A stretch of DNA of 64,000 bases. It comes from an uncultured Pelagibacteraceae bacterium. Its GTDB lineage: Bacteria; Pseudomonadota; Alphaproteobacteria; Pelagibacterales; Pelagibacteraceae. The translations under genes were made by a program, and so were the position numbers. Each line of letters begins with the position of its first letter. Positions within the stretch are counted from its first letter, which is position 1. A model generated the notes under the pieces. The model saw only the letters and a list, made by a program, of their open reading frames with translations. It made no database searches and had not been told where the DNA came from. Location: positions 186,001-250,000 of the forward strand of contig CACMIX010000001.1 in the NCBI GenBank assembly GCA_902613855.1, given 5' to 3'. Shown piece by piece: positions 5,106 through 58,723 of this stretch.

Positions 5106-6464
5106 TTAGCCTTTTACAACTTCTCTTGTGTTAGCGTTAAAAGACTCTTTAAATGGAATATCAACTACAACTGCGTCAACTGGAACTCCAGCTTTTTCAG
5201 AGTATTGTTCAGGTAAGTGTACTTTAAATTTTGTCCCAACCTTACCTTTTGGAAAACCATTCGCATTTAGAGTTCCATCAAATGGCACATATCCCATTGC
5301 AATGTTTTGTTTTTTTTCAGGATGATACCAAGGAGAAGTGATAAATCCTACAGGATCACCTCCACTTTCAGGAGAAACTAACCAAAAATCAGGTGCATAA
5401 TCCTCAATTGGTTTACCACCAAACTCTAAACCAACTAACTGAAGTTTATATGGTTTTTTTCCATCAACAAGATCTGCTTTCATTTTTTCTAAAGCTGATT
5501 TTCCTACATAATCTCCTTTTTTATTCCACTCTCCTTTTCCAGATAAAGAAACTTGATATCCCAGGTTACACTGAAAAGGATTATGTTGCTGGTCCATGTC
5601 TTGTCCCCAAGAAAGAATACCTGCTTGAATTCTTCTATGGTGTGCTGGTGCAATAACCATGAGGTTATGTTTTTTTCCTGCTTTAAGAACAGAATTCCAC
5701 ATATCTTCAGCATATAGAGTTGCGTTTCTTAAATATATTTCATAACCAGCCTCCCCAGAAAAACCAGACTGTGAAATAACACAACTTCTTCCTCCTATAT
5801 TTGCTTCTGCTAATCCATAAAAAGGCATATTATCAAAGTCCACTTGATCTCCACAAAGGTCTTTCATTAAAGCTTTTGATTTAGGTCCTTGGATTTGCAC
5901 AGGACAAGCATCTATTTCTTCTACTGTGCAATTAAATCTTCCATCCGCGTTTACGCCTTGCAAATACATTCCAATATCAGAGTCTGACAAAGAAAACCAA
6001 AATTCATCTTCAGAAATTCTTAATAAAATTGGATCATTTAAGACACCTCCATAAGCATTACATAAAATTACATATCTTGCTCTCATTGGAGAAATTTTCG
6101 TTGCATCTCTTGTGATTACATAATCAGTAAATTTTTCCGCATCTGGACCCTTTACTCTTATTTGTCTTTCAACAGCAACATTCCACATAGTTACATGATT
6201 AACAATCGCATCATATTCTACCATTGCACCACCATCTTCAGGTTTTACATAACCTCTTGGATGATAAATACGATTATAAACAGTTGCTCTCCAACATCCT
6301 GCCTGCATTGATAAATGCCAATAAGGTGATTTTCTCACTCTTGTTGAAATTAACATTTCAACTTTTGTTGGCCCACTTTGTCTTAAATTGTACGGTACTT
6401 CTCTGTCTGATTGATCAACAGAAGTAATATGTTTTAATTTAGTATAGTCAAATTCATTAGACAT
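5106..6464 (-). CDS. DmdA-like/GcvT-family folate-dependent methyltransferase
   Basis: This 452-residue protein has the GcvT aminomethyltransferase fold. Segments such as VAVERQIRVKGPDAEKF (about residue 95) and a TDYVITRDATK stretch, FSGEAGYEIYLR (about 235) and QHNPFQCNLGYQVSL resemble DmdA, which demethylates DMSP onto tetrahydrofolate. It is longer than DmdA (about 370 residues) and has its own N-terminal section, so the methyl donor may differ from DMSP. Candidates are another sulfonium or quaternary-amine compound. It overlaps the upstream MetF-like gene by 8 bases, which strongly suggests that the methyl-THF it makes is oxidised by that partner. The family is sure; the substrate is not. 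Confidence 0.85.
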   Translation of the reverse strand: MSNEFDYTKLKHITSVDQSDREVPYNLRQSGPTKVEMLISTRVRKSPYWHLSMQAGCWRATVYNRIYHPRGYVKPEDGGAMVEYDAIVNHVTMWNVAVERQIRVKGPDAEKFTDYVITRDATKISPMRARYVILCNAYGGVLNDPILLRISEDEFWFSLSDSDIGMYLQGVNADGRFNCTVEEIDACPVQIQGPKSKALMKDLCGDQVDFDNMPFYGLAEANIGGRSCVISQSGFSGEAGYEIYLRNATLYAEDMWNSVLKAGKKHNLMVIAPAHHRRIQAGILSWGQDMDQQHNPFQCNLGYQVSLSGKGEWNKKGDYVGKSALEKMKADLVDGKKPYKLQLVGLEFGGKPIEDYAPDFWLVSPESGGDPVGFITSPWYHPEKKQNIAMGYVPFDGTLNANGFPKGKVGTKFKVHLPEQYSEKAGVPVDAVVVDIPFKESFNANTREVVKG

Positions 6465-45837: not shown

Positions 45838-48496
45838 GAGAATACCAACAAAGTTGCTTAGAGAAGATATCAGTTATCTCGGGAATATTCTTGGCGAAGT
45901 AATTAAAGAGCAAGAAGGTATAAAGTTTTTCAATTTAGTCGAAAAGGTAAGGAAACTCTCAAAAGCCAATAAAATAAATCTTAAAAATAAAAATTCTTTT
46001 AAAAAATTAGTTAAAACAGTTAGAAAAAGTAATCCAAGAGATACACTTAGACTTACTAGAGCATTTACTCATTTCATAAATTTTATAAATCTAGCTGAGT
46101 CAATTGATACTGCGAGAAATTTAGATGAATATGAAACAAAGAGGAAAAATCTAAAATATAATATTTTCATAGAAGAAATATTTGAAAAACTTTTTAAAAA
46201 CAAAAAAATATCTAATAACAAAATTTACAATCTTGCTAAAAATTTGGATATAGGGATAGTTTTAACCGCACATCCAACAGAGGTAAAAAGAAGAACATTA
46301 ATACAAAAATATCACAAGATAATTGAAATTTTAGAGCAAAGAGATCTCTATAAATCTAATTCATCTAAATTAATACAATTAAACAAAGAACTATATAACG
46401 AGTTTACAATTATCTGGAATACAGACGATCTTAAAAGATCAAAACCTTCCCCATTTGATGAAGCAAGATGGGGCTTGGCGATTATAGAAGACAGTTTGTG
46501 GGATACTGTTCCAAAAGTTTATAGAAGATTAAACTCTATTTTTTTGAAAAATATGAATAGAGGATTGCCAAAGAATTTTAATCCAATTCAATTCGGTTCG
46601 TGGATGGGTGGGGATAGAGACGGAAATCCTAATGTGACTTCAGAAGTTACTAAAAAAGTAATTTTATTATCAAGATGGGAAGCAGCAAAACTATATGAGA
46701 AGTCTTTGACAAAAATTATTAGATCTTATTCTATGAAAAAATGTTCAAAAAAAATAAGTTCTAAAGTTGGAAAAACTTTTGAGCCGTATCGAGTTTTTTT
46801 AAGACCTCTAAGAGACAAACTGAGATTAACCCATAGGTCTATAGAACAATATTTTATAAATAAAACACCTCTAGATAAAAAAATCTTATTAACCTCAACT
46901 GAAGAAATTTTGAAGCCTTTGAGAGTTGTAAGAGAGTCTTTAGAGCAAAATCAAAATGAAAATGTTGCAAGTGGAGACTTATTAGACCTTATGAGAAGAG
47001 CAAAATGTTTTGGTATAAATCTTGCAAGAATAGACATTAGGCAAGAATCTTCTCGACACACACAATTGATTGCCGAATTTGTTAAAAAGAAATGTAATAA
47101 AAATTATTTTAAATTCACTGAAGATGAAAAAATTAATTTTTTAAAATCTAAATTAACTTCAAATAAAAACATTATTAATAAATTTAAATTTTCTAATAAA
47201 GAAAACAATGAAGTTTGGTCCACTTTAAAAATACTTGCCGACGAACCCTCTGAGTGTTTAGGTGCTTATGTAATTTCAATGACAACATCAGTATCAGATA
47301 TTTTATCAGTTTCATTTTTACAAAAAGAGGCAAAAATAAAAGATAAATTGAGAATTGTTCCATTATTTGAGACATTGGATGATTTGATTAATGCAAAACC
47401 AGTGATGGAGAATTTATTTTCGAAAAAATGGTACAGAAAATTAATAAAAAATAAACAAGAGGTAATGATTGGATATTCTGACTCTAGCAAAGATGCTGGA
47501 AAAATTTGTGCTAGCTGGCATCAATATAAAGCTCAAGAAGAAATTGTTAAATTAGGAAAAAAATTCAACATAGACGTAACTTTTTTTCATGGAAGAGGAG
47601 GTTCACCAGGAAGAGGTGGAGGCCCAATTCAAGCTACTTTAAGATCTCAACCACCCAATTCAGTAAATGGAAAAATAAGGATTACTGATCAGGGAGAAGT
47701 TATTCAGCAAAAATATGGTTATGAACCTATTGCTGAATATAATTTATGCAGTTACATAGGTGCTGTAACTGAGGCAACACTTAATCCACCACCTTCACCT
47801 AAGCAAAACTGGAGAGAATTAATTGAAAAAATGTCTGATATTTCTAAAAGTTCATATAGAAAAAATATTAATCAAAGCTCAGAATTTATTAAATATTTTA
47901 AAACTGTTACCCCAAGTGCAGCTCTAGGAAAACTATCTATTGGATCGAGACCATCAAAAAGGAAAAATGTTGATAATATTAAGAGTTTAAGAGCTATACC
48001 TTGGGTTTTTGCGTGGACACAAATAAGGTTAATGTTGCCAGCTTGGCTCGGTAGTGCAGAAGCTTTGAGATATGGTTATATAAAAAAATTTAGAAAAATA
48101 TTATTTGATATGGAAAAAAATTGGCCTTTTTTCAATTCAATGTTAGATATTCTTGATATGGTAATTACTAAAGCTGATCCAAGAATTTCAAAAATATATG
48201 AGGAGTATTTAGCAGATAATTCACTAAAAAGAGTTGGGAAAAAACTAAGATTTCAATTTGATGCAATAAAAAACTTAAATAAAAAAATAACAACAAAAGA
48301 AACTATTATGTCACGTAAGCAACTTAGAACTTTAATAACTGTCAGAGCTATATATTCTGAGGTACTAAATATTATTCAACCAATTGTTATATTTAAACTC
48401 AAAAAAAATAAAAAAATGTCTGAAAAAAAATATTTAAACGATGCTCTTTTAACATCAATAGCCGGAATATCAGCTGCTATGAAAAATACGGGATAG
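45812..48496 (+). CDS. ppc: Phosphoenolpyruvate carboxylase
   Basis: This 894-residue enzyme makes oxaloacetate from PEP and bicarbonate. The two signature regions are present: LTAHPTEVKRRTLIQKYH with the catalytic histidine (about residue 153), and FHGRGGSPGRGGGP (about 595). The arginine- and glycine-rich active-site loop and the C-terminal MLPAWLG motif are normal. The length is near 890-930 typical for the family. It opens inside the end of the lactonase gene, so translation is coupled. It supplies TCA-cycle intermediates when sugar acids are used. Confidence 0.97.
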   Translation: MKKRDLYYERIPTKLLREDISYLGNILGEVIKEQEGIKFFNLVEKVRKLSKANKINLKNKNSFKKLVKTVRKSNPRDTLRLTRAFTHFINFINLAESIDTARNLDEYETKRKNLKYNIFIEEIFEKLFKNKKISNNKIYNLAKNLDIGIVLTAHPTEVKRRTLIQKYHKIIEILEQRDLYKSNSSKLIQLNKELYNEFTIIWNTDDLKRSKPSPFDEARWGLAIIEDSLWDTVPKVYRRLNSIFLKNMNRGLPKNFNPIQFGSWMGGDRDGNPNVTSEVTKKVILLSRWEAAKLYEKSLTKIIRSYSMKKCSKKISSKVGKTFEPYRVFLRPLRDKLRLTHRSIEQYFINKTPLDKKILLTSTEEILKPLRVVRESLEQNQNENVASGDLLDLMRRAKCFGINLARIDIRQESSRHTQLIAEFVKKKCNKNYFKFTEDEKINFLKSKLTSNKNIINKFKFSNKENNEVWSTLKILADEPSECLGAYVISMTTSVSDILSVSFLQKEAKIKDKLRIVPLFETLDDLINAKPVMENLFSKKWYRKLIKNKQEVMIGYSDSSKDAGKICASWHQYKAQEEIVKLGKKFNIDVTFFHGRGGSPGRGGGPIQATLRSQPPNSVNGKIRITDQGEVIQQKYGYEPIAEYNLCSYIGAVTEATLNPPPSPKQNWRELIEKMSDISKSSYRKNINQSSEFIKYFKTVTPSAALGKLSIGSRPSKRKNVDNIKSLRAIPWVFAWTQIRLMLPAWLGSAEALRYGYIKKFRKILFDMEKNWPFFNSMLDILDMVITKADPRISKIYEEYLADNSLKRVGKKLRFQFDAIKNLNKKITTKETIMSRKQLRTLITVRAIYSEVLNIIQPIVIFKLKKNKKMSEKKYLNDALLTSIAGISAAMKNTG

Positions 48497-49204
48497 ATGT
48501 TTGAATATTTAATTGCTTTTGGTGCAGGTCTTATAAGTTTTTTATCACCATGTGTGTTACCACTTATCCCTGGATATGTTTCCTATATTTCAGGTCAATC
48601 TCTTCAAGAAATAATAGAATCTAAAAAAACTAACTTTTTTCCTTTAGTTTTATTTTGTTTGGGATTTTCAACTGTATTTGTACTTTTAGGAGCATCAGCC
48701 TCTTTCCTTGGTCAAGCACTCTTACAAAATTCAGAAATCTTAAGAATTTTTGCAGGAATAATAATTGTTTTATTCTCATTTCAATTACTAGGGATTATAA
48801 ATATTCCATATCTTAACTTTGAAAAAAGATTTGATGCAAAAGAATCTAGAAATATTTTATTTCCATATATAATTGGACTTGCATTTGGTTTTGGATGGAC
48901 TCCTTGTATTGGGCCAATTTTAGGTTCTATTTTAGCATTAGCCTCGATTGAAGAAACATTATCTAGAGCGATAATTTTGTTGATATCTTATTCATTAGGC
49001 CTTGCTATACCTTTTGTATTATCGGGATATTTAATTCAGAGATTTTTATTATTTTCAAAAAATTTTAGAAAAAATATAAATTTGATCTCAAAAATAGGTG
49101 GAATAACTCTATTAGTTACAGGTATTTTAATTTTAACCAATCAGCTGCAAGCAATTGGCTTCTATATAATTAAAGTTTTTCCTTTTATGCAAAATTTCGG
49201 CTAA
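48497..49204 (+). CDS. ccdA: Cytochrome c biogenesis protein CcdA
   Basis: This 235-residue protein has six membrane helices and two conserved cysteine motifs: LSPCVLPLIPGYVSYISG (residue about 20) and FGWTPCIGPILGSIL (about 135). CcdA passes reducing power from cytosolic thioredoxin to periplasmic thiols for cytochrome c maturation. It begins directly after the ppc stop with no gap. The c-type cytochrome at 30842 is a likely beneficiary. Confidence 0.93.
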   Translation: MFEYLIAFGAGLISFLSPCVLPLIPGYVSYISGQSLQEIIESKKTNFFPLVLFCLGFSTVFVLLGASASFLGQALLQNSEILRIFAGIIIVLFSFQLLGIINIPYLNFEKRFDAKESRNILFPYIIGLAFGFGWTPCIGPILGSILALASIEETLSRAIILLISYSLGLAIPFVLSGYLIQRFLLFSKNFRKNINLISKIGGITLLVTGILILTNQLQAIGFYIIKVFPFMQNFG

Positions 49205-49213
49205 AAAGGAAGA

Positions 49214-49801
49214 ATGAAAATCTATCAAATAGACTCAAGTGCCAGAAAAAAAGGCTCAACTTCAAGAGCATTAGCTAAAAAATTGTTAGATAAAATAAAA
49301 AAACCTGGTGACGAAGTGCTTTACAGAGATTTAGATGAAGAGATGCTTTTTGTAAGTGGATTAACAGAGTCTGGTATGAAAATTGATGAAAAAGATCAAA
49401 CAGAACATCACAAAAAAATGTTTGAGTTGTCAGACCAACTTGTAAAAGAGCTTAAAGAAAGTGATGTCATTATTATTTCAGCTCCAATTTATAATTATGG
49501 TCCACCAGCAACCTTAAAAGCTTGGACGGATTTAGCTGCTAGAATTGGAGAAACATTTAAATTTAAACCAAATGGAAGAAGGGAAGGACTATTAAAAAAC
49601 AAACATGCTTATTTGGTCATTACTTCTGGTGGTACTAAACTTAATAGTGCTGAGGATTTTTTAACACCATGGTTAAAGTTTATTTTAAATTTCTTTGGGA
49701 TAGAAAAAGTAGATGTAATTAGTGCTGATCAAATGGCTTTGGATTATGATAAATCGATCAAAGATGCAGAAGCTCAAATTGAAAATTTGTTTAAAGATTA
49801 A
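49214..49801 (+). CDS. azoR: FMN-dependent NADH azoreductase-like oxidoreductase
   Basis: This 195-residue flavodoxin-2-fold protein starts QIDSSARKKGSTSRALAKKLLD and has IIISAPIYNYGPPATLKAWTDLAARIGETF and VITSGGTKLNSAEDF. These fit AzoR, which reduces quinones and azo compounds with NADH. It is separated from ccdA by 9 bases. The electron donor and physiological substrate are not defined. Confidence 0.86.
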   Translation: MKIYQIDSSARKKGSTSRALAKKLLDKIKKPGDEVLYRDLDEEMLFVSGLTESGMKIDEKDQTEHHKKMFELSDQLVKELKESDVIIISAPIYNYGPPATLKAWTDLAARIGETFKFKPNGRREGLLKNKHAYLVITSGGTKLNSAEDFLTPWLKFILNFFGIEKVDVISADQMALDYDKSIKDAEAQIENLFKD

Positions 49802-49859
49802 AATAAATAAAATTAAAAATTAACTTTAATAGATATTAATTTAATAGTAAGAACCTCTT

Positions 49860-50663
49860 GTGAATAATTTTGATACAAAAAAATATCCAATATTTTCTAA
49901 GTTCTTAAACCAATTAGCTAGAGATCTTACTAGTTTTTATTATTCTAAATTAAACAAGACTTTTAAAGTATCCAATAAGCTTAAGGGAAAAGGCTACGAC
50001 CCTGTAACAACATCCGACAAAGCATTTGAAAAATTCATAAGATCTAAGATTAAAAAAAAATTTCCCAGTCACCAAGTTATAGGTGAAGAGTTTGGCCACA
50101 AAAAATCAAAAAGTGAATTTACATGGGTAATTGATCCAATTGATGGAACAAGGTCGTATGTAATAGGAAATCCAACTTGGAGTAATTTGATTTCATTAAA
50201 TTACAAAGGCTATCCAATTTTAGGATTAGCAAATTTTCCAATTTTAAAAAAATATTATTTAAATCATACTAATACAGCTGCCTATGTAGTAGAAAATGGT
50301 AAAAAAAGAAAAATTAAGGTCAATAAAAAAGCAATTTTTAAAAATGTAAAAGTTTCCGCTGCATTTCATGGATCACTGTCTCTCAATAAACAAAAAAAAA
50401 TTCCTCAAATTTTAAAATTGATGCAATTTCCATGCAGTGATGCTCTCAGTTATTCACACTTGGCTGAAGGAAGACTTGATATTGTAATTCAATGTTCAAA
50501 TAAAATTTGGGATATTCACCCTTTGATACCTATCATAAAAGCTGCAGGTGGTTACCTTAATACATGGGATAACAAAGATGCAATAAAAGGTGGAAATATT
50601 TTAGTTTCATCAAATAAAGCTATTCATAATAAATTTTTGAAATTATTAAAACCTGTTTCCTAA
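49860..50663 (+). CDS. hisN: Inositol-monophosphatase-family phosphatase, histidinol-phosphatase type
   Basis: This 267-residue protein starts with GTG. The metal and catalytic motifs of the family are GEEFG (Glu of motif one), WVIDPIDGTRSYVIGNPTWSNLI and WDIHPLIPIIKAAGGYL. Many alphaproteobacteria use this HisN type in histidine synthesis, and the presence of hisI and hisD fits. Inositol or other sugar phosphatase activity cannot be excluded. It has a lysine-rich, AT-biased composition. Confidence 0.82.
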   Translation: MNNFDTKKYPIFSKFLNQLARDLTSFYYSKLNKTFKVSNKLKGKGYDPVTTSDKAFEKFIRSKIKKKFPSHQVIGEEFGHKKSKSEFTWVIDPIDGTRSYVIGNPTWSNLISLNYKGYPILGLANFPILKKYYLNHTNTAAYVVENGKKRKIKVNKKAIFKNVKVSAAFHGSLSLNKQKKIPQILKLMQFPCSDALSYSHLAEGRLDIVIQCSNKIWDIHPLIPIIKAAGGYLNTWDNKDAIKGGNILVSSNKAIHNKFLKLLKPVS

Positions 50664-50678
50664 AAATTTTTTGTAATA

Positions 50679-51029
50679 ATGAATCTAAAGTATATTTTTA
50701 AAATTTTAGATAAAGAAGAGTGGAATAATGCCAAAAAAAATGGAAAATTTTCTGGCTCATCAAAAGATATTAACGATGGATACATTCATTTTTCTGAGGA
50801 AGAACAAGTTCAGGAAACATTAAAAAAATATTATGACAAGAAAGAAAATTTAATCTTGTTAAAAGTACACACATTAAATTTAGAGCATTTAGTATGGGAG
50901 AATGCCTCTAATGGAGATATGTACCCCCATTTGTATTCAACTTTAGATATCGTAAATGTTGAAGATGAATTTGAGCTGATCCTAAACAAAGATGGAACTC
51001 ATCAGTTACCAGATATTTTTGAAAAATAA
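50679..51029 (+). CDS. DUF952 family protein
   Basis: This 116-residue protein starts IFKILDKEEWNNAKKNGKFSGSSKD and contains GYIHFSEEEQVQETLKKYYDKKENLILLKVHTLN and WENASNGDMYPHLYSTL. These are the core motifs of DUF952, which has an ADP-ribosyltransferase-like fold and no known role. It follows the histidinol-phosphatase-like gene by 15 bases and converges with the SMR gene. Confidence 0.88.
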   Translation: MNLKYIFKILDKEEWNNAKKNGKFSGSSKDINDGYIHFSEEEQVQETLKKYYDKKENLILLKVHTLNLEHLVWENASNGDMYPHLYSTLDIVNVEDEFELILNKDGTHQLPDIFEK

Positions 51030-51039
51030 TTTTAATTTA

Positions 51040-51375
51040 CTAATCTATTTGTCCTAAATAGTTGACCATTATTACACCAATAATAATTAGAATTATTCCA
51101 ATAATTCCATAAATATTTGGAATTTGATTAAACTTTAAAACAGCAAATAGAACTACGCCTGTCACAGTTAATCCGCTATAAGTCGAATAAGCAAATCCAA
51201 CTGGAAGAGCAGACATTGCTTTTGCGATCGAAAACATAGTAATACACATAAATAATATACATAGAACAGATGGGGTTAATTTTGAGAAACCATCTGAGAT
51301 CTTTGCTAAACTATTTGACGCTATTCCAAATATAATTCCATTAGCTAAAAATAAATATCCTAATAATGGTTTCAT
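51040..51375 (-). CDS. SMR-family membrane protein lacking the EmrE glutamate
   Basis: This 111-residue protein has four helices and the SMR layout: NSLAKISDGFSKLTPSV in helix one and the loop after it, GFAYSTYSGLT in the third segment, and GIIGIILIIIGVIMVNYLG at the end. In EmrE the essential Glu14 aligns with Gly17 here, and the Trp63 position is Tyr. It is the last gene of a ten-gene minus-strand operon and lies 2 bases after a DUF2798-like gene. It may export or import a molecule without the usual proton-coupled glutamate. Confidence 0.8.
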   Translation of the reverse strand: MKPLLGYLFLANGIIFGIASNSLAKISDGFSKLTPSVLCILFMCITMFSIAKAMSALPVGFAYSTYSGLTVTGVVLFAVLKFNQIPNIYGIIGIILIIIGVIMVNYLGQID

Positions 51376-51377
51376 AA

Positions 51378-51602
51378 TTACTCTATAGTAATTTTATCAA
51401 TTAGAGATCTTATCATTGGTGCTATTATTATAGCAGCTAACAGAGCAACAGGAAAAGCAAACATCCAAGAATAAAACCACCTTCCAAAAAATCCATCTGT
51501 TAAACTTGTATTAACAGCTACAACAACACCACTCATAATCAAACTCATTCCAAATGACATTAAGAAAATAAATACAAATTGTGCATATTTTTTTTTAATC
51601 AT
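51378..51602 (-). CDS. DUF2798-like membrane protein
   Basis: This 74-residue protein has two helices: QFVFIFLMSFGMSLIMSGVVVAVN, then GRWFYSWMFAFPVALLAAIIIAPMIRSLID. This matches DUF2798, a small membrane family of unknown role often found near exporters. It lies exactly between two SMR-type genes with 2-base gaps on each side, which suggests that the three products form one membrane complex. Confidence 0.8.
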   Translation of the reverse strand: MIKKKYAQFVFIFLMSFGMSLIMSGVVVAVNTSLTDGFFGRWFYSWMFAFPVALLAAIIIAPMIRSLIDKITIE

Positions 51603-51604
51603 TA

Positions 51605-51937
51605 TTAATTGTTTCCTAATAAATTAACCATCAACACTCCAACAACTATAAGAGCTAATCCAATTAATGAATATAAATTAGGTATCTGATTAAATCTAAT
51701 AACACCAACAATCACAGTAGCTATAATTGTTAATCCTGCAAATGACGCATAGGTTATACCCATTGGTATATTTTTCATTACTAAAGAAAGTGCATACATA
51801 CATAGAACTATAGTAATTGCAGTAATGATACTTGGAAAGAGAAGGGTAAATCCCTCAGCACTTTTTGCAAAACTATTAGAAGTAACACCCAGGAAAACAG
51901 CAATTCCTAGAAAAAGGTAGGAAGTAGCGAGACTCAT
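51605..51937 (-). CDS. SMR-family membrane protein lacking the EmrE glutamate (second copy)
   Basis: This 110-residue protein has four helices. The pattern VTSNSFAKSAEGFTLLFPSI, GITYASFAGLTIIAT and LIGLALIVVGVLMVNLLG is parallel to the gene at 51040, with which it shares SNS-x-AK-x-x-x-GF. The EmrE Glu14 position is again Gly17, and the Trp63 position is Phe. Two diverged SMR copies usually form a heterodimer; here a DUF2798-like protein is encoded between them. The substrate is unknown. Confidence 0.8.
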   Translation of the reverse strand: MSLATSYLFLGIAVFLGVTSNSFAKSAEGFTLLFPSIITAITIVLCMYALSLVMKNIPMGITYASFAGLTIIATVIVGVIRFNQIPNLYSLIGLALIVVGVLMVNLLGNN

Positions 51938-51975
51938 TTTATAACTTTAAATGATATCCCGCTAAATTTATATAA

Positions 51976-52296
51976 TTATTTAGGTATTGGAGTAGCGCCT
52001 GTCTCCAAGCTTGCTATTTTTCCATCTTTGTATTTATAAACAGCCATAACAGCTTCAACATTACCATCATTAAATGTTACAAAAGCATGATGCACACCTA
52101 CTTCATCATTTTCATAAACTATTCTTACTTTATCTTGATTAATGTCACCACTCATAGCCCATTTCATTACATCAGCTTTAGTTAAAACATTTCCTGACTT
52201 ATGCATTGTAAATTTAAAATCATCATGCAAAAGTTCATTCATTGCTGCTTCATCTTTGTTTTTCAAAGCAGCGCTATATTTTTCTAATATCGACAT
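51976..52296 (-). CDS. NTF2-like/SnoaL-type protein (106 residues)
   Basis: This protein starts MSILEKYSAALKNKDEAAMNELLHDDFKFT and has strand-rich segments (NDEVGVHHAFVTF, EAVMAVYKYKDGKIASLETGA), giving the cone-shaped NTF2-like fold. A ribosome site AAGGAGC lies just upstream, inside the end of the previous gene. Members act as isomerases, dehydratases or ligand carriers; no catalytic residues can be assigned. It is separated from the SMR gene by 38 bases. Confidence 0.8.
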   Translation of the reverse strand: MSILEKYSAALKNKDEAAMNELLHDDFKFTMHKSGNVLTKADVMKWAMSGDINQDKVRIVYENDEVGVHHAFVTFNDGNVEAVMAVYKYKDGKIASLETGATPIPK

Positions 52297-52298
52297 TT

Positions 52299-52589
52299 TT
52301 ATGCTCCTTGTATTATTATCCCATTAGTATTTGCATTAACTAACCGGATTTTTTTTATTGGTTGATATTCATCCGAATTGTACCATTCCAATGCTTTTTC
52401 ATATGAAGGAAACTTTATTACAACAGTTCTGCTATATTGCCAAGTTCCTTCTATAATTTGGTTTGTACCACCTCTAATTATGTAATCACCACCAAATTTT
52501 TCTGCAATAGGTTTAACTTTTTCAACATATTCTTTATAATCTTCTGGATTAGTTACCTCTATGTTAAAAATAGCATAGCCAGCTTGCAT
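52299..52589 (-). CDS. DUF1330 family protein
   Basis: This 96-residue protein has the DUF1330 pattern: AGYAIFNIEVTNPEDYKEYVEKVKPIAEKFGGDYIIRGG, then a TVVIKFPSYEKALEWYNSDEYQPI section. It has the ferredoxin-like dimeric alpha-beta barrel fold. The family role is unknown. It starts with a weak ribosome site, unlike most genes of the operon, and overlaps in expression with the NTF2-like gene 2 bases downstream. Confidence 0.86.
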   Translation of the reverse strand: MQAGYAIFNIEVTNPEDYKEYVEKVKPIAEKFGGDYIIRGGTNQIIEGTWQYSRTVVIKFPSYEKALEWYNSDEYQPIKKIRLVNANTNGIIIQGA

Positions 52590-52599
52590 TTTTTTTTAG

Positions 52600-52887
52600 T
52601 TAAGCATTAAAATCTATAATGTCGTCTGTACACTCAGCAAATTTGTGAGGTTCAAAGAAATCATTCATAGGTGTTAATTGTTTGTTGATTGATTCAGTAT
52701 CGTTACCTTTCCACCAGCAAAACATTGTTAAATTATCACCTGGAGTATTCCAACTCATTTGACACTTTGCATTTTCTCCAGACATTGATTTAACCATATC
52801 CTCCTTAGACATTGAACCAACGACTTCCATCATTTTAGCCTTAGCCTCTTTAGACTTAAATGTATGAGTTACTATATAGTTTTTCAC
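52600..52887 (-). CDS. Small cytosolic protein, dimeric-barrel-like, unknown
   Basis: This 95-residue protein has a GTG start and a good AGGAGA site. It begins with YIVTHTFKSKEAKAKMMEVVGSM and includes SWNTPGDNLTMFCWWKGNDTESIN and MNDFFEPHKFAECTDDI. The strand-helix-strand pattern suggests a ferredoxin-like dimeric barrel like DUF1330. No family is recognised. The tryptophan and cysteine cluster FCWWKG is striking. Confidence 0.72.
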   Translation of the reverse strand: MKNYIVTHTFKSKEAKAKMMEVVGSMSKEDMVKSMSGENAKCQMSWNTPGDNLTMFCWWKGNDTESINKQLTPMNDFFEPHKFAECTDDIIDFNA

Positions 52888-52906
52888 TTTTTTCTCCTTT
52901 GTTAAA

Positions 52907-53197
52907 TTAAAGACTTATCTCTGACATTTCCCAAAGCTGAGCACTTTCTATGCATTCTTCATAAATCGCTTTTGCAGTAGGATGCTTCCCAGATACAAAT
53001 TCTTTCATTCCAGGTTCATTATGAACTGAAACTTTAAACAACATACCTGTCTTATCTGGTTTCATTGCTCCTATAGTTTTTTCTGGATAGGCAACACTTT
53101 TTCTGACACCCATACCTTCATCAGATTGCATCCATCCCATAAAAGTCTCCATTTTACCTTCTTTGAAATTTACTAATGCTAACATTTCTTTTTCCAT
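52907..53197 (-). CDS. Small cytosolic protein, unknown
   Basis: The protein has 96 residues from the ATG at 53197, chosen because AGGAGA lies directly upstream; a longer frame from 53236 lacks a ribosome site and runs into the previous gene. It begins MEKEMLALVNFKEGKMETFM and includes MKPDKTGMLFKVSVHNEPGM and HPTAKAIYEECIES. A small alpha-beta barrel is plausible. It is unusually rich in methionine. No family is recognised. Confidence 0.7.
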   Translation of the reverse strand: MEKEMLALVNFKEGKMETFMGWMQSDEGMGVRKSVAYPEKTIGAMKPDKTGMLFKVSVHNEPGMKEFVSGKHPTAKAIYEECIESAQLWEMSEISL

Positions 53198-53216
53198 TTT
53201 TTCTCCTTTCGTAAAT

Positions 53217-53594
53217 TTAATATAAAGTCTGCACAACTTTTTTTACTCGTTCTTCACCGTCTGGAACAGCTGAGTTCACAAAAGTATGACAAGCTTCTGT
53301 TTTTGCTTCATCATATTTTGAGCCATAAAACTTATCTACAGCTTTATTAACTCCATCATCCCATTCTTTTTCAGGAATTCCTATTTCTAAAGCATATGAT
53401 TTAAGAACCTTAACAGATGCCATTGATTTTTCTTTCATACTGTATTCAAAAGTTTCACCAGATGGCAAAAAGTAGTTAGCCATATAAATCCCACTGCATT
53501 CCCAAGCTTTAGATTTATCGCTATCCGACATCCCCGCAATTGCAGTTGATGAAAGAAGGGCAGTAAATAGTATTACCAATGTCGTTTTTCTCAT
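53217..53594 (-). CDS. Secreted protein of unknown function
   Basis: This 125-residue protein has a signal peptide (MRKTTLVILFTALLSSTAIAG, cleavage about residue 20) and an AGGAGA ribosome site. The mature part is helical and has two cysteines, WECSGIYM and ACHTFVNS, which could form one disulfide. No family is recognised. Together with the next upstream gene it shows that part of this operon works in the periplasm. Confidence 0.75.
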   Translation of the reverse strand: MRKTTLVILFTALLSSTAIAGMSDSDKSKAWECSGIYMANYFLPSGETFEYSMKEKSMASVKVLKSYALEIGIPEKEWDDGVNKAVDKFYGSKYDEAKTEACHTFVNSAVPDGEERVKKVVQTLY

Positions 53595-53615
53595 TATTTA
53601 TCTCCTTTTTTTTAA

Positions 53616-54089
53616 TTAATAAGTAAAGTTTCCACTCATTTGATTTAATGAATGAGCCATTCCAGCTTTACCTTTTAAATTTTGTCTACTAGAGAAACCT
53701 GTTCCAGAAATTTTTTCATATTTCCCAGTTCCACCAACAATTACAAACTCTCCAGATCCACCTTGGCCTCCAGTTCCTTTACCTTTGTAATTTATGAAAA
53801 CCTTTTCACCATCCATTAAGTAAAAAGTACACATCCCTGTTTCGTCATCAAATTTCCCTGCAACTAAAGTTAATCCTCCAATACAGTGCATTGTAGATTT
53901 ATCAAAAATGCTTCCTTCTTTATCTGAAAGTCCAGCATTACCATCATAAGTAATACTCATATTTCCATTACCAGCATTCATAATATTCATTGCCCAAGAT
54001 CCTGCTCCAGAAGCATTAAATTTACCTGTATCAGCTAATGAGTAAGTTGTTAAACACGTAAATATTAAAGTTAATAGTATTTTTTTCAT
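53616..54089 (-). CDS. Secreted small beta-barrel-like protein (allene-oxide-cyclase-like fold)
   Basis: This 157-residue protein has a signal peptide (about residues 1-19, ending in a Ser-Leu-Ala type site) and an AGGAGA site. The mature part is glycine-rich and strand-rich: GSWAMNIMNAGNGNMSITYDG, GGLTLVAGKFDDETGMCTFY and FVIVGGTGKYEKISGTGFSSR. The GGTGKYEKISGTG pattern recalls the allene oxide cyclase/dirigent barrel. I infer a ligand-binding barrel; no enzyme activity can be assigned. Confidence 0.7.
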   Translation of the reverse strand: MKKILLTLIFTCLTTYSLADTGKFNASGAGSWAMNIMNAGNGNMSITYDGNAGLSDKEGSIFDKSTMHCIGGLTLVAGKFDDETGMCTFYLMDGEKVFINYKGKGTGGQGGSGEFVIVGGTGKYEKISGTGFSSRQNLKGKAGMAHSLNQMSGNFTY

Positions 54090-54100
54090 TTATTTTTCTC

Positions 54101-54484
54101 CTATTTTTTCATTGCATTAAACATACTTAATGTATCATCGTATGTTGTCATTGAAGATATTTTGCCGTTGTCTGCAACTTCAAAAAAATGTCCAAACATT
54201 GTATCCATTCCACTTGCTTTTCCTTTACACTTAACAAATACCTTGTTGCCTTCGGAAATCATCTCACCTGGAATAACTTGAAAATTGTCCCATGCTGCAG
54301 GAATTTTTTGAAAAGTTTCCATCATAGCTTGTTTACCTTTATGGACTCCTGATAGAGGGTGTTTACCGATTTCACCTGGAAAGGTCCAAATACACTCATC
54401 ATGAACTAAATCATTAAACATAGTTTCCATGTCACCTTTACCAAATGCCTCATAGGCTTTTTTTACAACATCTTTTGCTTCCAT
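54101..54484 (-). CDS. NTF2-like/SnoaL-type protein (127 residues), first gene of the operon
   Basis: This protein starts EAKDVVKKAYEAFGKGDMETMFNDLVHDECIWTF, followed by GVHKGKQAMMETFQKIPAAWDNF and strands leading to GHFFEVADNGKISSM. It fits the NTF2-like superfamily, the same fold as the gene at 51976 but not a close copy. An AGAGGAA site precedes it. The upstream gap 54485-54675 must contain the operon promoter and shows an inverted repeat. Confidence 0.82.
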   Translation of the reverse strand: MEAKDVVKKAYEAFGKGDMETMFNDLVHDECIWTFPGEIGKHPLSGVHKGKQAMMETFQKIPAAWDNFQVIPGEMISEGNKVFVKCKGKASGMDTMFGHFFEVADNGKISSMTTYDDTLSMFNAMKK

Positions 54485-54543
54485 AAATATTCCTCTAAAT
54501 TGTTATGAGTTAAAATTTATGTTATCTATAAGGGCATAGTGTT

Positions 54544-54577
54544 ACACATTCATTAAAACGTCATGCGTCAAATGTGT
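54544..54577. promoter_or_regulatory. Inverted repeat in the control region of the small-protein operon
   Basis: ACACATT (54544-54550) pairs with AATGTGT (54571-54577) across a 20-base gap that contains a direct repeat CGTCA-TG-CGTCA (54559-54570). It lies about 60 bases upstream of the first gene of the minus-strand operon and 100 bases from the divergent plus-strand gene. A regulator-binding site is plausible but unproven. Confidence 0.4.
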
Positions 54578-54675
54578 ATATCAAATATGCAAAACCTACA
54601 TCAACTTGCAATTGAAATGTGATTTATTTATTTAATAAATAAAGTGTATTCAAAATTTATTTTTGATATTATTTA

Positions 54676-55095
54676 ATGATGATCGAAAAATTTAATGGAT
54701 TTTTTTATTTAATACTTTTTTTAATTCATTTTATAGGTTTTGCTTATTATGGATTTAGATGTGTTTTCCAAACTCAATCTTTTTTAAATCAATATGGGAT
54801 GGATGCTACAGGCGCAGGTATAGTCAGATTTTTTGGATCTATTTTTATTGGTTCAACTTTAATGGCAATCTATGTGGGCTTTATAAGACCTAACGGCTTA
54901 GAAGCAACCTGGGGTTTCTTTAATGTGATTTTTTTACAAAACTTGTGTGCGTTTATTGTTGGTTTCTATAGTACAAAAATAAATAAACTTGGTCATACAG
55001 ATAAAACTTCAGATGAAGCAATTTATGCTCCTTTAGTGCTAACAATTTTAAGTGGTGTTCTTTGTTACGGATTAGCTGACAAAATTTATATTTAA
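54676..55095 (+). CDS. Small membrane protein, unknown
   Basis: This 139-residue protein has about four helices: LILFLIHFIGFAYYGFRCVF, GIVRFFGSIFIGSTLMAIYVG, FFNVIFLQNLCAFIVGFY and LVLTILSGVLCYGLAD. No motif beyond a membrane fold was recognised. It is divergent from the small-protein operon and overlaps the end of cysK by 4 bases. It may share regulation with the neighbouring operon. Confidence 0.72.
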   Translation: MMIEKFNGFFYLILFLIHFIGFAYYGFRCVFQTQSFLNQYGMDATGAGIVRFFGSIFIGSTLMAIYVGFIRPNGLEATWGFFNVIFLQNLCAFIVGFYSTKINKLGHTDKTSDEAIYAPLVLTILSGVLCYGLADKIYI

Positions 55096-56093
55096 AACCA
55101 ACTAGGTACTGGTAGTCCTTTTTCTTCTAGAAACTTTTTATTAAACATTTTAGTAGCGTATTTATCGCTTCTATCACAAAGAATAGTAACAATTGTTTTG
55201 CCAGGACCTAATTCTTTACCCATCTTAATAGCTCCTGCAATATTGATCCCACAACTAGTTCCTAAGCTTAATCCTTCATTTTGAATTAAATCATAAAGAA
55301 TTGGTAATGCCTCTTTGTCATCTATTGAATAAGCATCGTCTATTTTAGCATCTTTAAAGTTTGCTGTTATCCTACTAGATCCTATACCTTCTGTTATAGA
55401 TCCACCTTCAGATTTTAATTCTCCATTCTTTATGTAGTTATAAAGAGCAGAGCCTTTTGGATCAGAAAGGAAAATTTTAATATTTTTATTTTTTTCTTTA
55501 AGAGCATTACTAACCCCTGAAATTGTTCCACCAGTTCCAGATGAACACACAAATCCATCAACTTTACCGTTAGTTTGATCCCAAATTTCTTTACCAGTTC
55601 CTTCATAATGACCTTTTGCATTTGCCACATTATCAAATTGGTTAGCCCAAATTACTCCATTATTATTCGAAGGTCTAAGTTCGTCAGCTAATCGTGCTGC
55701 AACTTTAACAAAGTTGTTATCATCTTTATAAGGTTTAGCTGGAACTAATTTTAATTCTGCACCTAAATTTCTTAAAAGGTCTTTTTTCTCTTGAGTTTGA
55801 TTGTCATTCATTACAATGATTGTTTTATACCCTAATGAATTTCCCAATAGACCCAGTCCAATCCCCGTGTTACCAGCAGTTCCCTCAACAACTGTTCCAC
55901 CTTTAGCAATTAATTTTTTTTCTTGAGCATCTTTAATTAATGCAAGGGCCGCTCTATCTTTGACAGAACCTCCAGGATTTAAAAACTCAGCTTTTCCAAA
56001 AATATTACAACCAGTTATTTCTGATGCAGCTCTTAATTTTATTAAAGGGGTATTTCCAATCCCTGAAATAAAATCATTTTGTAAATCATTCAT
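55092..56093 (-). CDS. cysK: Cysteine synthase A
   Basis: This 333-residue PLP enzyme converts O-acetylserine and sulfide to cysteine. The PLP lysine lies in GGSVKDRAA (about residue 44), substrate loops are in EGTAGNTGIGLG, and the phosphate cup is CSSGTGGTISGVS. It overlaps cysE by one base (TAATG), as expected for the CysE/CysK complex. The C-terminus ends in KGLPVPSWF. Confidence 0.95.
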   Translation of the reverse strand: MNDLQNDFISGIGNTPLIKLRAASEITGCNIFGKAEFLNPGGSVKDRAALALIKDAQEKKLIAKGGTVVEGTAGNTGIGLGLLGNSLGYKTIIVMNDNQTQEKKDLLRNLGAELKLVPAKPYKDDNNFVKVAARLADELRPSNNNGVIWANQFDNVANAKGHYEGTGKEIWDQTNGKVDGFVCSSGTGGTISGVSNALKEKNKNIKIFLSDPKGSALYNYIKNGELKSEGGSITEGIGSSRITANFKDAKIDDAYSIDDKEALPILYDLIQNEGLSLGTSCGINIAGAIKMGKELGPGKTIVTILCDRSDKYATKMFNKKFLEEKGLPVPSWF

Positions 56094-56671
56094 TATTCTG
56101 ATTTTTTATCACTATCAGGAGTAATACCATAAGGTTTAAATTCGCTATCAGCGAGACCTACATTTTTAGCAGGTATACCAACCATCACAGCTTTTTCTGG
56201 AACATCTTTTGTAATTACAGCATTAGCTCCAATTTTTGCACAACATCCAATAGTCACTGGACCTAATACTTGAGCACCTGAGCCAATGACAACTTCATTT
56301 TCAATTGTCGGATGACGTTTAACATTTCTTTGATTATCTGAATTTATACTTGGAGCTATTCCTCCTAAAGTTACCATATGATAAATAGTGACATTGTCTC
56401 CAATTTCAGATGTTTCACCAATTACAACTCCCATACCATGATCAATAAATAAATTTTTTCCTATTTTTGCTTTAGGATGAATTTCAATTCCAGTTAAGAA
56501 CCTTGAAAATTGAGAAATAATCCTTGCAATTAAATCAAATTTTGCTGTAGAAAAAAAATTCGCTATTCTATGAAAAAATACCGCTTTAACACCAGGGTAA
56601 GTTAAAATTAAACTTAATTTTGACTTAGCCGCAGGATCTCGGTCAATTATTGATTGTAAAAAATCGTTCAT
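56093..56671 (-). CDS. cysE: Serine O-acetyltransferase
   Basis: This 192-residue left-handed beta-helix acetyltransferase has [39 protein letters not shown] and a lysine- and glutamate-rich tail. It is the short form of CysE with a reduced N-terminal domain. It acetylates serine for the CysK reaction encoded downstream. It starts 68 bases from the divergent VOC gene. Confidence 0.92.
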
Positions 56672-56682
56672 ATTTATGCTAG

Positions 56683-56710
56683 TTGAATTTAAAATTACAG
56701 GTTATATAAT
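56683..56710 (+). promoter_or_regulatory. Probable sigma-70-type promoter of the VOC gene
   Basis: TTGAAT (56683-56688) and TATAAT (56705-56710) are separated by 16 bases and lie 29 bases before the ATG at 56740. An AAAGGAT ribosome site follows. The match is good for such an AT-rich genome, but transcript start is not known. Confidence 0.45.
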
Positions 56711-56739
56711 GATTATATTCAGTAATTAAAGGATAATTT

Positions 56740-57150
56740 ATGTACAAAAATACTAATTGTTTTCACTTGGCAATTCCATGTGGAGATTTAGAGATAGCAA
56801 AAAAATTTTACAGTGAAACTTTAGGATGTAGATTGGATAACTCAGCTCAAGAATGGGCTGATGTTGATTTTTGGGGCAATGAATTAACTCTTCATAAAAG
56901 TGAACATAAACTGGATAGTGAAAGACATGACGTTGATATGGGAAATGTATCAGTACCGCATTTTGGAGTTCATTTATCTAGAAAAGATTTCGATAGTTTA
57001 AAACAAAGATTAAAGGATAGTGGCACAAAATATTATGATGAGCCTTATTTAAGATTTAAAGGCACCAAATATGAGCAAGAAACTTTTTTTGTAAAAGATC
57101 CCAACGAAAATATTTTAGAAATTAAGACACTTACAGCTAATTCAGATTAA
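56740..57150 (+). CDS. VOC-superfamily (glyoxalase/dioxygenase-like) protein
   Basis: This 136-residue protein has the paired beta-alpha-beta modules of the VOC fold: HLAIPCGDLEIAKKFYSETLGCRL (about residue 9) and HFGVHLSRKDFDSLKQRLKDSG, ending with FFVKDPNENILEIK. Metal ligands are the first His, later His residues and the final Glu. The substrate is unknown. It is followed after 8 bases by an HTH protein. Confidence 0.86.
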   Translation: MYKNTNCFHLAIPCGDLEIAKKFYSETLGCRLDNSAQEWADVDFWGNELTLHKSEHKLDSERHDVDMGNVSVPHFGVHLSRKDFDSLKQRLKDSGTKYYDEPYLRFKGTKYEQETFFVKDPNENILEIKTLTANSD

Positions 57151-57158
57151 TTTTTTTA

Positions 57159-57635
57159 ATGAAAAAAAATCTGGATGCTTATAGTGAAACATTGTTTCAC
57201 TTGATTAACTTTCGTAATAGGCAGTTTAGAGATTCAAGATCGATGATTGGTATTGATTATGAGTCTTTTATAATTATCTCAACTATTGGAGCACATTATT
57301 TAACACACAATACTAAACAAGGGAGCAATTGGGATAGTGTTTGGGAGGGCACAAGACAAAAAAAAGTTGATGAAATATATAGTAAAAAAAAATTAACTAT
57401 TTTCGCTGTATCCCATATTTTAAATATACCTAAAGAAACCGTAAGAAGAAAAGTTGATATTTTAAAAAGAAAAAAATTGATCTCTCATAATACAAAGTCA
57501 GGCTTATTACCTACCGAAAAAATTGAAGAAATTATGAAACCTTTTGCAAAACAAGAATTAAACACCCTGGCTAAATTTTTACAGGAGTTAAAAAAGCATA
57601 AAGCTTTAGATCAATTGTTAAACTTAAAAGATTAA
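57159..57635 (+). CDS. Helix-turn-helix protein, putative regulator
   Basis: This 158-residue protein has a MarR-like winged-HTH core: IFAVSHILNIPKETVRRKVDILKRKKLI (about residue 84-110) is a good HTH. Its N-terminal part FRNRQFRDSRSMIGIDYESFIIIS is helical and could form the dimer. Family membership is uncertain. Because it lies just upstream of the glycine-betaine transporter and a dyad site at 57653, it may regulate that operon. Confidence 0.7.
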   Translation: MKKNLDAYSETLFHLINFRNRQFRDSRSMIGIDYESFIIISTIGAHYLTHNTKQGSNWDSVWEGTRQKKVDEIYSKKKLTIFAVSHILNIPKETVRRKVDILKRKKLISHNTKSGLLPTEKIEEIMKPFAKQELNTLAKFLQELKKHKALDQLLNLKD

Positions 57636-57652
57636 AAAAAATTTTTAAAAGA

Positions 57653-57679
57653 CTGCATTTGCAATATATGCAATACAGT
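57653..57679. promoter_or_regulatory. Dyad-symmetric site before the glycine-betaine operon
   Basis: The region contains ACTG...TTGCA-ATATA-TGCAA...CAGT, with TTGCA/TGCAA at 57659-57663 and 57669-57673 and outer ACTG/CAGT arms. It lies about 80 bases before the proX start and 20 bases after the HTH gene. It is a good candidate operator, with binding unproven. Confidence 0.45.
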
Positions 57680-57760
57680 TAACCCAAAATGAACAAGCAT
57701 TTTCTTTGACTCGTCTTTGTTAATTTAGTTAACTTAATTAAATTAAATATAGGGGAAAAT

Positions 57761-58723
57761 ATGAAAATAATTAAAACTACACTTGTAGCCGGATTAATTT
57801 CTATTTTTGCAATTGTTTCATCATTTGCAGAAAAGGTAAAAATTGGAGATCCAGGTTGGACAGGTGCAACAGCAATTGCGAATTTATTAGCAGCAGTTGT
57901 AACAGACAAGATGGGTGGTGAAGCTGAACTTGTTCCAGGAAACAATACTGCTATTTATGGAGCAATTGATAGAAGTAAAGGAGAAATTGAAGTTCATCCT
58001 GATATATGGTTACCAAACCAACAGGCTTATACTAATGACTTAGTTCCCAAAGGTACTTTAAAGTTAAGTAGCAAGCCTTATGAAGGAAACCAAGGTTATT
58101 GTGTTTCACAGAAGTTTGCAAAAAAAATGAATATTACCGCAATTGAAGATCTGGGTAGACCTGAAGTTGTTAAAGCTATGGATAGTGATGGCAATGGTAA
58201 AGGTGAGTTCTGGATTGGTGCAGATGGTTGGGCATCAGCAAACGTAAACCAAGTTAAATTAAGAGATTATGGTTTATATGATGCAGGTATTGAACCAATA
58301 AGAGCAGCTGAAGCGGTAAAGAATGCAAGAGTTTTAGATTCTATTAAAAAAGGTGAGGGATATGCATTTTATTGTTACAAGCCACATGCAATTTGGGGTA
58401 TGGCTGATGTAGTTATGTTGGAAGAACCAAAATTTGATCCAGCTAAATACAAAATGGTTCAACCTAAAGAAGATGCTGATTGGTACAAAAAATCTTATGT
58501 AGCTTCAAAAGATGCACTTAAACAAATTCAAATTGGTTGGGGAACTTCTCTAGAAAGTAAATCTCCTGCAATTGTTGAATTCTTTAAGAACTTTCAATTA
58601 ACTGCAGATGATGTTTCATCAATGGCTTATGCAATATCAGTGGAGAAAAAAGCTCCAGCTGACGTTGCAAGAGCTTGGATGGATGCAAATAAATCAACTG
58701 TTGATGGTTGGTTAGGGCTTTAA
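57761..58723 (+). CDS. proX: Glycine betaine/proline ABC transporter substrate-binding protein
   Basis: This 320-residue protein has a signal peptide (about 22 residues, ending SSFAE). The mature part has DPGWTGATAIANLLAAVVTDKMG and HPDIWLPNQQAY, and aromatic residues that form the betaine box are seen in GWASANVNQ and YCYKPHAIWGMADVVM. It binds glycine betaine or a related quaternary ammonium compound in the periplasm for the ProVW system. It precedes a 14-base perfect hairpin. Confidence 0.92.
   Translation: MKIIKTTLVAGLISIFAIVSSFAEKVKIGDPGWTGATAIANLLAAVVTDKMGGEAELVPGNNTAIYGAIDRSKGEIEVHPDIWLPNQQAYTNDLVPKGTLKLSSKPYEGNQGYCVSQKFAKKMNITAIEDLGRPEVVKAMDSDGNGKGEFWIGADGWASANVNQVKLRDYGLYDAGIEPIRAAEAVKNARVLDSIKKGEGYAFYCYKPHAIWGMADVVMLEEPKFDPAKYKMVQPKEDADWYKKSYVASKDALKQIQIGWGTSLESKSPAIVEFFKNFQLTADDVSSMAYAISVEKKAPADVARAWMDANKSTVDGWLGL

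Follow-up and report, generated by a model that had tools for sequence, protein, structure and literature searches.

In proteins of the SMR family, the central glutamate is essential in the Gdx, Qac and polyamine subtypes. It is often replaced by asparagine in lipid SMRs, which keep the tyrosine switch and are possibly not proton coupled, and paired heterodimeric SMRs show a Lys/Arg bias centred near +4 and -4 (available passages of PMC9574504). A precedent at the chromosome level is given by the four hypervariable regions (HVR1-4) of SAR11, with variable content at a fixed chromosomal place and gene ranges 0042-0054, 0524-0568, 1162-1173 and 1214-1221 (available passages of PMC2217521). Here, we analyse an array of ten small genes in which two SMR paralogues lack the central glutamate, and the chromosomal slot, of conserved position and shuffled content, that holds it. 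The array lies at 51040-54484 of the window, by which we mean the whole stretch of 64,000 nucleotides analysed (contig CACMIX010000001.1), from a SAR11 (Pelagibacter) genome of 1.21 Mb that is 97% complete.

As a preliminary description had stated, the array is formed by ten consecutive open reading frames (ORFs), all on the minus strand and of 74-157 residues each, with gaps of 2, 2, 38, 2, 10, 19, 19, 21 and 11 bases. One start had to be corrected: the likeliest start of the gene at 52907 is the ATG at 53197 (96 residues, with AGGAG ahead), instead of the TTG given by the ORF caller. The strong ribosome sites claimed for most of the soluble genes are there, with AGGA or AGGAG upstream of six of the seven soluble or secreted genes (the exception is the DUF1330 gene) and, as read from the sequence, of none of the three membrane genes. 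The array proteins were scanned with Pfam and NCBIfam profiles, Pfam matches being judged by their own cut-offs. Six genes passed in Pfam: two SMR, DUF2798, two SnoaL_2/NTF2-like and DUF1330. This agrees with the earlier assignment of the last three and with the view of the SMR-DUF2798-SMR unit as unusual. No Pfam or NCBIfam family over cut-off was obtained for the other four, named U1 (52600), U2 (52907), secH (53217) and secB (53616); the signal peptides of secH and secB are putative and were judged by eye. The ratio of non-synonymous to synonymous substitution rates (dN/dS) is 0 to 0.08 in the closest usable pairs for all ten genes, which indicates purifying selection (pairs with dS outside 0.05-1.5 or with low coverage were excluded). 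The median ratios of SMR paralogue A (0.38) and DUF2798 (0.41) probably reflect a mixture of paralogues and distant pairs.

SMR proteins without the central glutamate

Both SMR proteins of the array score well above the PF00893 cut-off of 23.7 bits. They share with EmrE, Gdx-Clo and MdtIJ a length of about 110 residues, the PF00893 match, the possibility of being aligned over the full length of EmrE, and the Tyr60 switch, but the central glutamate, the binding-site tryptophan and the second glycine of the GXG fulcrum are absent. The residues were read by profile alignment to EmrE in 207 rows of slot SMRs (167 distinct, with repeats since the collections may share genomes). All 207 have glycine at the Glu14 position, Tyr or Phe at position 63 and Thr or Cys at position 67. 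Asn is found at position 18 in 206 of the rows, Tyr60 is likewise retained in 206, and the transmembrane columns are free of acidic residues in 203. The signature of this Glu-less SAR11 type is therefore Gly14-Asn18-Tyr60-Tyr/Phe63-Thr/Cys67 in EmrE numbering. In contrast, the glutamate, the tyrosine, the tryptophan and both glycines are kept in 29 of 29 control SMRs, namely the genome's own third SMR (L086) and the 28 loci with the highest scores outside the genus in a search at class level that also matched 92 further genomes.

In the phylogeny, the Glu-less SMRs group in a single clade (support 0.94) that includes no control and contains two paralogue clades of 25 and 23 tips. A profile of the slot SMRs gives 159-179 bits to the Glu-less SMRs of the genus in the class sample and at most 84 to the others. 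The Glu-less type is present in other SAR11 genera too. Loci L242-L289 gave 57 SMR rows, some of them repeats, of which 50 belong to the Glu-less type and 7 are canonical; the latter are the ones fetched from a group of 14 with scores of 108-128 bits. We think that the anatomy of the array and the loss of these residues can be taken as practically certain.

In strain HTCC1062, one such gene, SAR11_0786, is annotated as qacH (available part of PMC2704228), and ordinary efflux of quaternary ammonium compounds would be the conventional explanation. The PF00893 matches agree with it, and the NCBIfam Qac models give the nearest similarity; however, the best of these scores is 83.4 bits against a cut-off of 160, and Glu14, Trp63 and Gly67 are lost in every row. 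The central glutamate is also absent from the annotated qacH itself (L288, positions 6014-6346). This loss, set against the intact residues of all the controls, makes the qacH label doubtful and suggests that proton-coupled cation export by the slot SMRs is unlikely. Canonical efflux was rejected on these residues, and we find it hardly credible.

Another explanation is that the Glu-less SMRs move a lipid or a lipid-linked intermediate, as reported for ArnE/ArnF, with the small proteins devoted to envelope maintenance. Loss of the central glutamate, the tyrosine switch and doubtful proton coupling are indeed common to the slot SMRs and to the lipid SMRs as these appear in the available passages of PMC9574504. 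Nevertheless, the residue at the site is glycine and not the asparagine of ArnE/ArnF, with an additional Asn18, the NCBIfam models of ArnE and ArnF give only 12.8-13.8 bits versus cut-offs of 92-99, and no glycolipid gene was recognised in the window's slot. We consider a lipid substrate improbable. The opposite charge bias reported for paired heterodimeric SMRs (same passages) is absent as well: by an approximate loop assignment, the Lys/Arg bias goes from -1 to +1 in the 207 slot rows and from -1 to +2 in the controls, and this near-zero bias is shared with dual-topology singletons. Loss of E14 is also known in YvaD, a Bacillus SMR partner, although that protein is described as diverged and under little selection (available part of PMC2716321), whereas the slot SMRs have a fixed signature and low dN/dS between close relatives.

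A fixed slot with shuffled content

The array occupies a fixed chromosomal site, with cysE-cysK on one side and an inositol-monophosphatase-like gene on the other. Two samples of this slot were collected. The first joined the window's own locus to 80 others retrieved with U1; of these 81, 67 had both slot ends and the other 14 were left out. Because these loci were found with U1, its counts are biased in this sample, and cysK was therefore used as anchor for the second. Searching 99 genomes of the genus gave 89 matches, from which 60 loci were picked manually in list order, blind to slot content yet not randomly, each with about 11 kb beyond cysK (shorter at contig ends). Both boundaries are present in 52 of the 60, which are referred to as complete loci; the 8 that had no labelled boundary at one end were left out.

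Each complete locus carries 4 to 12 genes from the 16 families counted, and 46 distinct arrangements are found in the 52 loci. Besides the families counted in Table 1, SMR genes are present in 49 loci, U3 in 20, TPR in 13, and cupin, c28 and a DsbA-fold protein (HCCA) in 12 each. With the membrane gene TM excluded, cysK's strand carries 387 of the 395 family genes, and all 8 on the other strand are SMR genes. TM itself is on cysK's strand in 23 loci and opposite in 19, and it is located inside the array in other strains. Gene pairs occur in both orders, for example U1 before U2 in 5 loci and after it in 13. The gene order is not conserved, and the site, the strand and the repertoire are. The most persistent family is the Glu-less SMR, usually beside DUF2798; of the 42 complete loci with a DUF2798 gene, 39 have it directly next to an SMR gene.

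The preliminary description had presented the ten genes as one operon and as a candidate for an undescribed system, and had taken lack of conserved order in relatives as the sign of a chance cluster. Order is indeed lacking, and the ten genes do not form a conserved block. A chance cluster was nonetheless rejected, given that the same families recur at a fixed site and nearly all on one strand in the 52 complete loci. What stands of the undescribed system is a real, selected gene set for which the open-licence literature of PubMed Central provided no description. Profile-profile comparison of 13 slot families scored, apart from signal-peptide matches, only c28 against DUF1330, and so gives no evidence that U1, U2 and U3 descend from one ancestor.

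These data have to be confronted with the idea of a gene-parking slot, i.e., a permissive and well-expressed landing site behind cysK into which unrelated small useful genes are swapped by homologous recombination. The 46 arrangements, the optional genes present in 9 to 27 of the 52 loci, the long unrelated ORFs within several complete loci and the retention in HTCC1062 of just the SMR pair are what such a site would produce. It explains less well the persistence of SMR (49), NTF2b, DUF2798 and TM (42 each), and the fact that U1 and the same cupin family are found together again in a genome of another family. We think that parking is a serious possibility, nearly as likely as the reading as a functional system that is developed below.

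In HTCC1062, the slot contains two overlapping SMR genes and a 69-residue ORF, then cysK, and none of the other array families, which may be the reason why the array drew little notice. The published intergenic stretch between SAR11_0785 and SAR11_0786 (available part of PMC2704228) coincides exactly with the interval that separates the DUF952 gene from the first SMR gene (L288, 5679-6013, equal to 762678-763012 of the chromosome). The neighbouring gene SAR11_0785 was up 1.52-fold under iron limitation (P 0.051; available part of PMC2864753), a slight hint as to expression. SAR11_0788, within the slot, is tabled as an unknown gene without detected homologues in the available part of PMC2217521. 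Variable content at a fixed place is what the slot has in common with HVR1-4; however, it lies at SAR11_0785-0791, outside the four ranges, and differs from them by a recurring set of small genes.

Both HTCC1062 and the window's clade have an AT-rich leader of about 47 bases before an SMR gene, while the gene upstream of the leader varies (NTF2b, HCCA, secS, or the 69-residue ORF of HTCC1062). Its pattern has 32 distinct matches in the loci examined, with an SMR gene directly after in 30 (not in L155 and L159), and a single match in its own genome even when up to 3 mismatches are allowed. No clear Shine-Dalgarno site is seen in it, and it may act as a promoter or control translation. Many other strains have no leader before the SMR genes, often with DUF2798 or another SMR gene directly upstream. 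A consensus promoter scan was uninformative, with 17 sites versus 24.8 expected, and an Rfam scan of positions 48000-58000 gave no family. This conserved leader points to a possible transcription or control of the SMR unit separate from that of the soluble genes and, together with the variable order and members, makes the single transcript proposed earlier uncertain.

Small soluble and secreted proteins

The barrel-like appearance attributed to U1 from its letters is supported by an AlphaFold2 model of a small alpha+beta ferredoxin-like (barrel-forming) fold. Its matches to TftG (VIA Z 7.8, root-mean-square deviation 2.7, 80 aligned) and to SCO4226 (VIA Z 6.7, deviation 3.1, 76 aligned) have Z below 8 and possibly reflect just a common arrangement. 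The predicted fold may resemble that of SCO4226 and related small alpha+beta proteins, but U1 scores 16.8 bits with the SCO4226-like family PF14026, below the cut-off of 28.5. Counting its own genome, U1 is present in 43 of 151 genomes of the genus and in 7 of the 23 better ones. In one genome of another alphaproteobacterial family, a row of six small genes (L241, 73-2498) includes U1 and the slot's cupin family (44% identity), together with a SnoaL-size protein, a second cupin-like protein and other small proteins, labelled by eye; no SMR was recognised by eye in this contig of 10.5 kb. It is likely a parallel small-protein cluster, and it is the sole support for the gene set from another family. 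Searches for U1, SMR and secH in viral contigs gave pattern matches and no confirmed relatives, and no plasmid was found to carry U1. A phage search with SMR paralogue B returned 10 records, all below 60% identity, of which the four annotated are Qac/ethidium-type genes.

For secH, the AlphaFold2 model is a helical bundle, and C33 and C102 are invariant in 15 rows. The fold search gave a best VIA Z of 5.5, too low to be meaningful for a helical bundle, and no convincing match in the PDB. The gene is found in 2 of 279 class-level genomes, both of the Pelagibacter genus. PDB sequence searches with profiles of U1, U2, U3, secB and secH gave nothing credible. The secreted pair had been proposed earlier to capture a small organic compound for import by the membrane unit and conversion inside the cell. 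Two signal-bearing proteins do adjoin that unit; however, the secreted genes are often missing (secH in 37 and secB in 14 loci, versus 49 for SMR), and since the residues of the proton-coupled subtypes are absent from the slot SMRs, no energy source for uptake is visible. The helical secH model does not help either, and we regard import as quite improbable.

Table 1. Features of the array and its surroundings (window coordinates; loci are counts among the 52 complete loci)
Feature	Position	Strand	Loci	Remarks
NTF2a, NTF2-like/SnoaL_2, 127 residues, first array gene	54101..54484	-	9	SnoaL_2 45.5 bits, over gathering score; optional
secB, signal-like N-terminus, 157 residues	53616..54089	-	14	family not assigned; optional
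secH, signal-like N-terminus, 125 residues	53217..53594	-	37	predicted helical bundle, AlphaFold2 pLDDT 86
U2, small soluble protein, 96 residues	52907..53197	-	34	no Pfam match
U1, small soluble protein, 95 residues	52600..52887	-	25	GTG start; predicted ferredoxin-like fold, AlphaFold2 pLDDT 86
DUF1330 protein, 96 residues	52299..52589	-	27	Pfam 112.8 bits, over gathering score
NTF2b, NTF2-like/SnoaL_2, 106 residues	51976..52296	-	42	Pfam 33.4 bits, over gathering score; frequent member
AT-rich conserved leader before SMR unit	51947..51981	-		one genome match; kept despite differing upstream gene
SMR paralogue B, Glu-less, 110 residues	51605..51937	-		PF00893 63.0 bits; E14 to G, T18 to N, W63 to F, G67 to T, Tyr60 kept
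DUF2798 membrane protein, 74 residues	51378..51602	-	42	Pfam 66.0 bits, over cut-off
SMR paralogue A, Glu-less, 111 residues	51040..51375	-		PF00893 58.7 bits; E14 to G, T18 to N, W63 to Y, G67 to T
TM, membrane protein, 139 residues, divergent in window	54676..55095	+	42	no Pfam family
cysK and cysE, one slot boundary	55092..56671	-		Pfam PALP and hexapeptide transferase
Inositol-monophosphatase-like gene and DUF952 gene, other slot boundary	49860..51029	+		Pfam

Beyond the slot, positions 57159-57635 encode a 158-residue protein of no Pfam family, winged-helix-like by eye, which adjoins a glyoxalase gene and is a possible regulator.

Operon contexts and proposed function

The Glu-less SMR is also found in other contexts. 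Ten genomes from two other SAR11 genera have it joined to the 3' end of mtnA (L247, L251-L256 and L264 in one genus; L246 and L268 in another), with an ATGA-type overlap where the junction was read and mostly with mtnP ahead in the stretch covered. The dephosphorylated intermediates of the mtnP-mtnA salvage pathway are uncharged thio-sugars, and these loci suggest that methylthioadenosine salvage may have a dedicated facilitator there. In L280, the SMR gene is followed, in convergent orientation, by a gene for a bifunctional aldolase/dehydrogenase. Other arrangements comprise an epimerase-like gene followed by the SMR gene in 5 genomes of a third genus, dxs followed by it in one genome, an AhpD-like gene followed by it in two Pelagibacter genomes, and, in one genome, a position between the two permease genes of a Liv/Urt-type ABC operon (L282, 5781-9358; second permease and ATPases by eye). 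From these varied contexts, we infer that the Glu-less SMR would act as a general facilitator of uncharged products.

The explanation that we prefer for the slot, with a probability of roughly 0.4, is a modular set of small ligand-handling proteins combined with a proton-uncoupled facilitator for neutral metabolites. In its favour are the conserved slot, strand and repertoire, the altered residues and separate clade of the SMRs, the SMR pair retained in HTCC1062, the junctions with mtnA, the row with U1 and the cupin in another family, and the low dN/dS of all ten genes in the closest pairs. DUF1330, the NTF2/SnoaL proteins and U1 would each bind, isomerise or neutralise small metabolites that are reactive or hydrophobic, and U3, the cupin and the DsbA-fold enzyme of relatives would have the same role. 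The small secreted proteins would handle the same compounds in the periplasm, and the differing gene subsets could reflect differing compounds in each strain. As to the parts of this reading, a functional link among the modules is about an even bet, and facilitation of neutral solutes by the SMR unit is less likely than not. Tentatively, the Glu-less SAR11 type might represent a fifth kind of SMR that, with DUF2798, would facilitate the passage of neutral metabolites (thio-sugars or reactive hydrophobic by-products, for example) independently of protons and would be plugged into the reshuffled toolkit of the slot or directly onto pathways such as mtnP-mtnA.

Several observations weigh against this explanation. 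An SMR pair is present in 29 of the complete loci, but 20 have a single SMR gene and 3 none, and a loose collection would account for the shuffling and the optional members just as well as a system. The class-level search located U1 in 1 of 277 genomes outside the genus, and the phylum-level search in none of 397 others. In 26 loci outside Pelagibacter, DUF2798 has no neighbour matching the SMR profile within about 1.5 kb. Moreover, the vicinity of dxs, AhpD-like, epimerase-like and Liv/Urt ABC genes implies no single pathway.

SAR11 is among the most abundant marine bacterial groups and has very reduced genomes; therefore, a retained and strain-variable block of 4-12 genes must pay its way. 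If the Glu-less SMRs do transport without protons, they would be a natural test of an SMR fold deprived of the central carboxylate, and the HTCC1062 gene would be wrongly labelled as qacH. Since the strains differ by defined single-gene modules, the slot makes the strain-to-strain chemistry of SAR11 testable.

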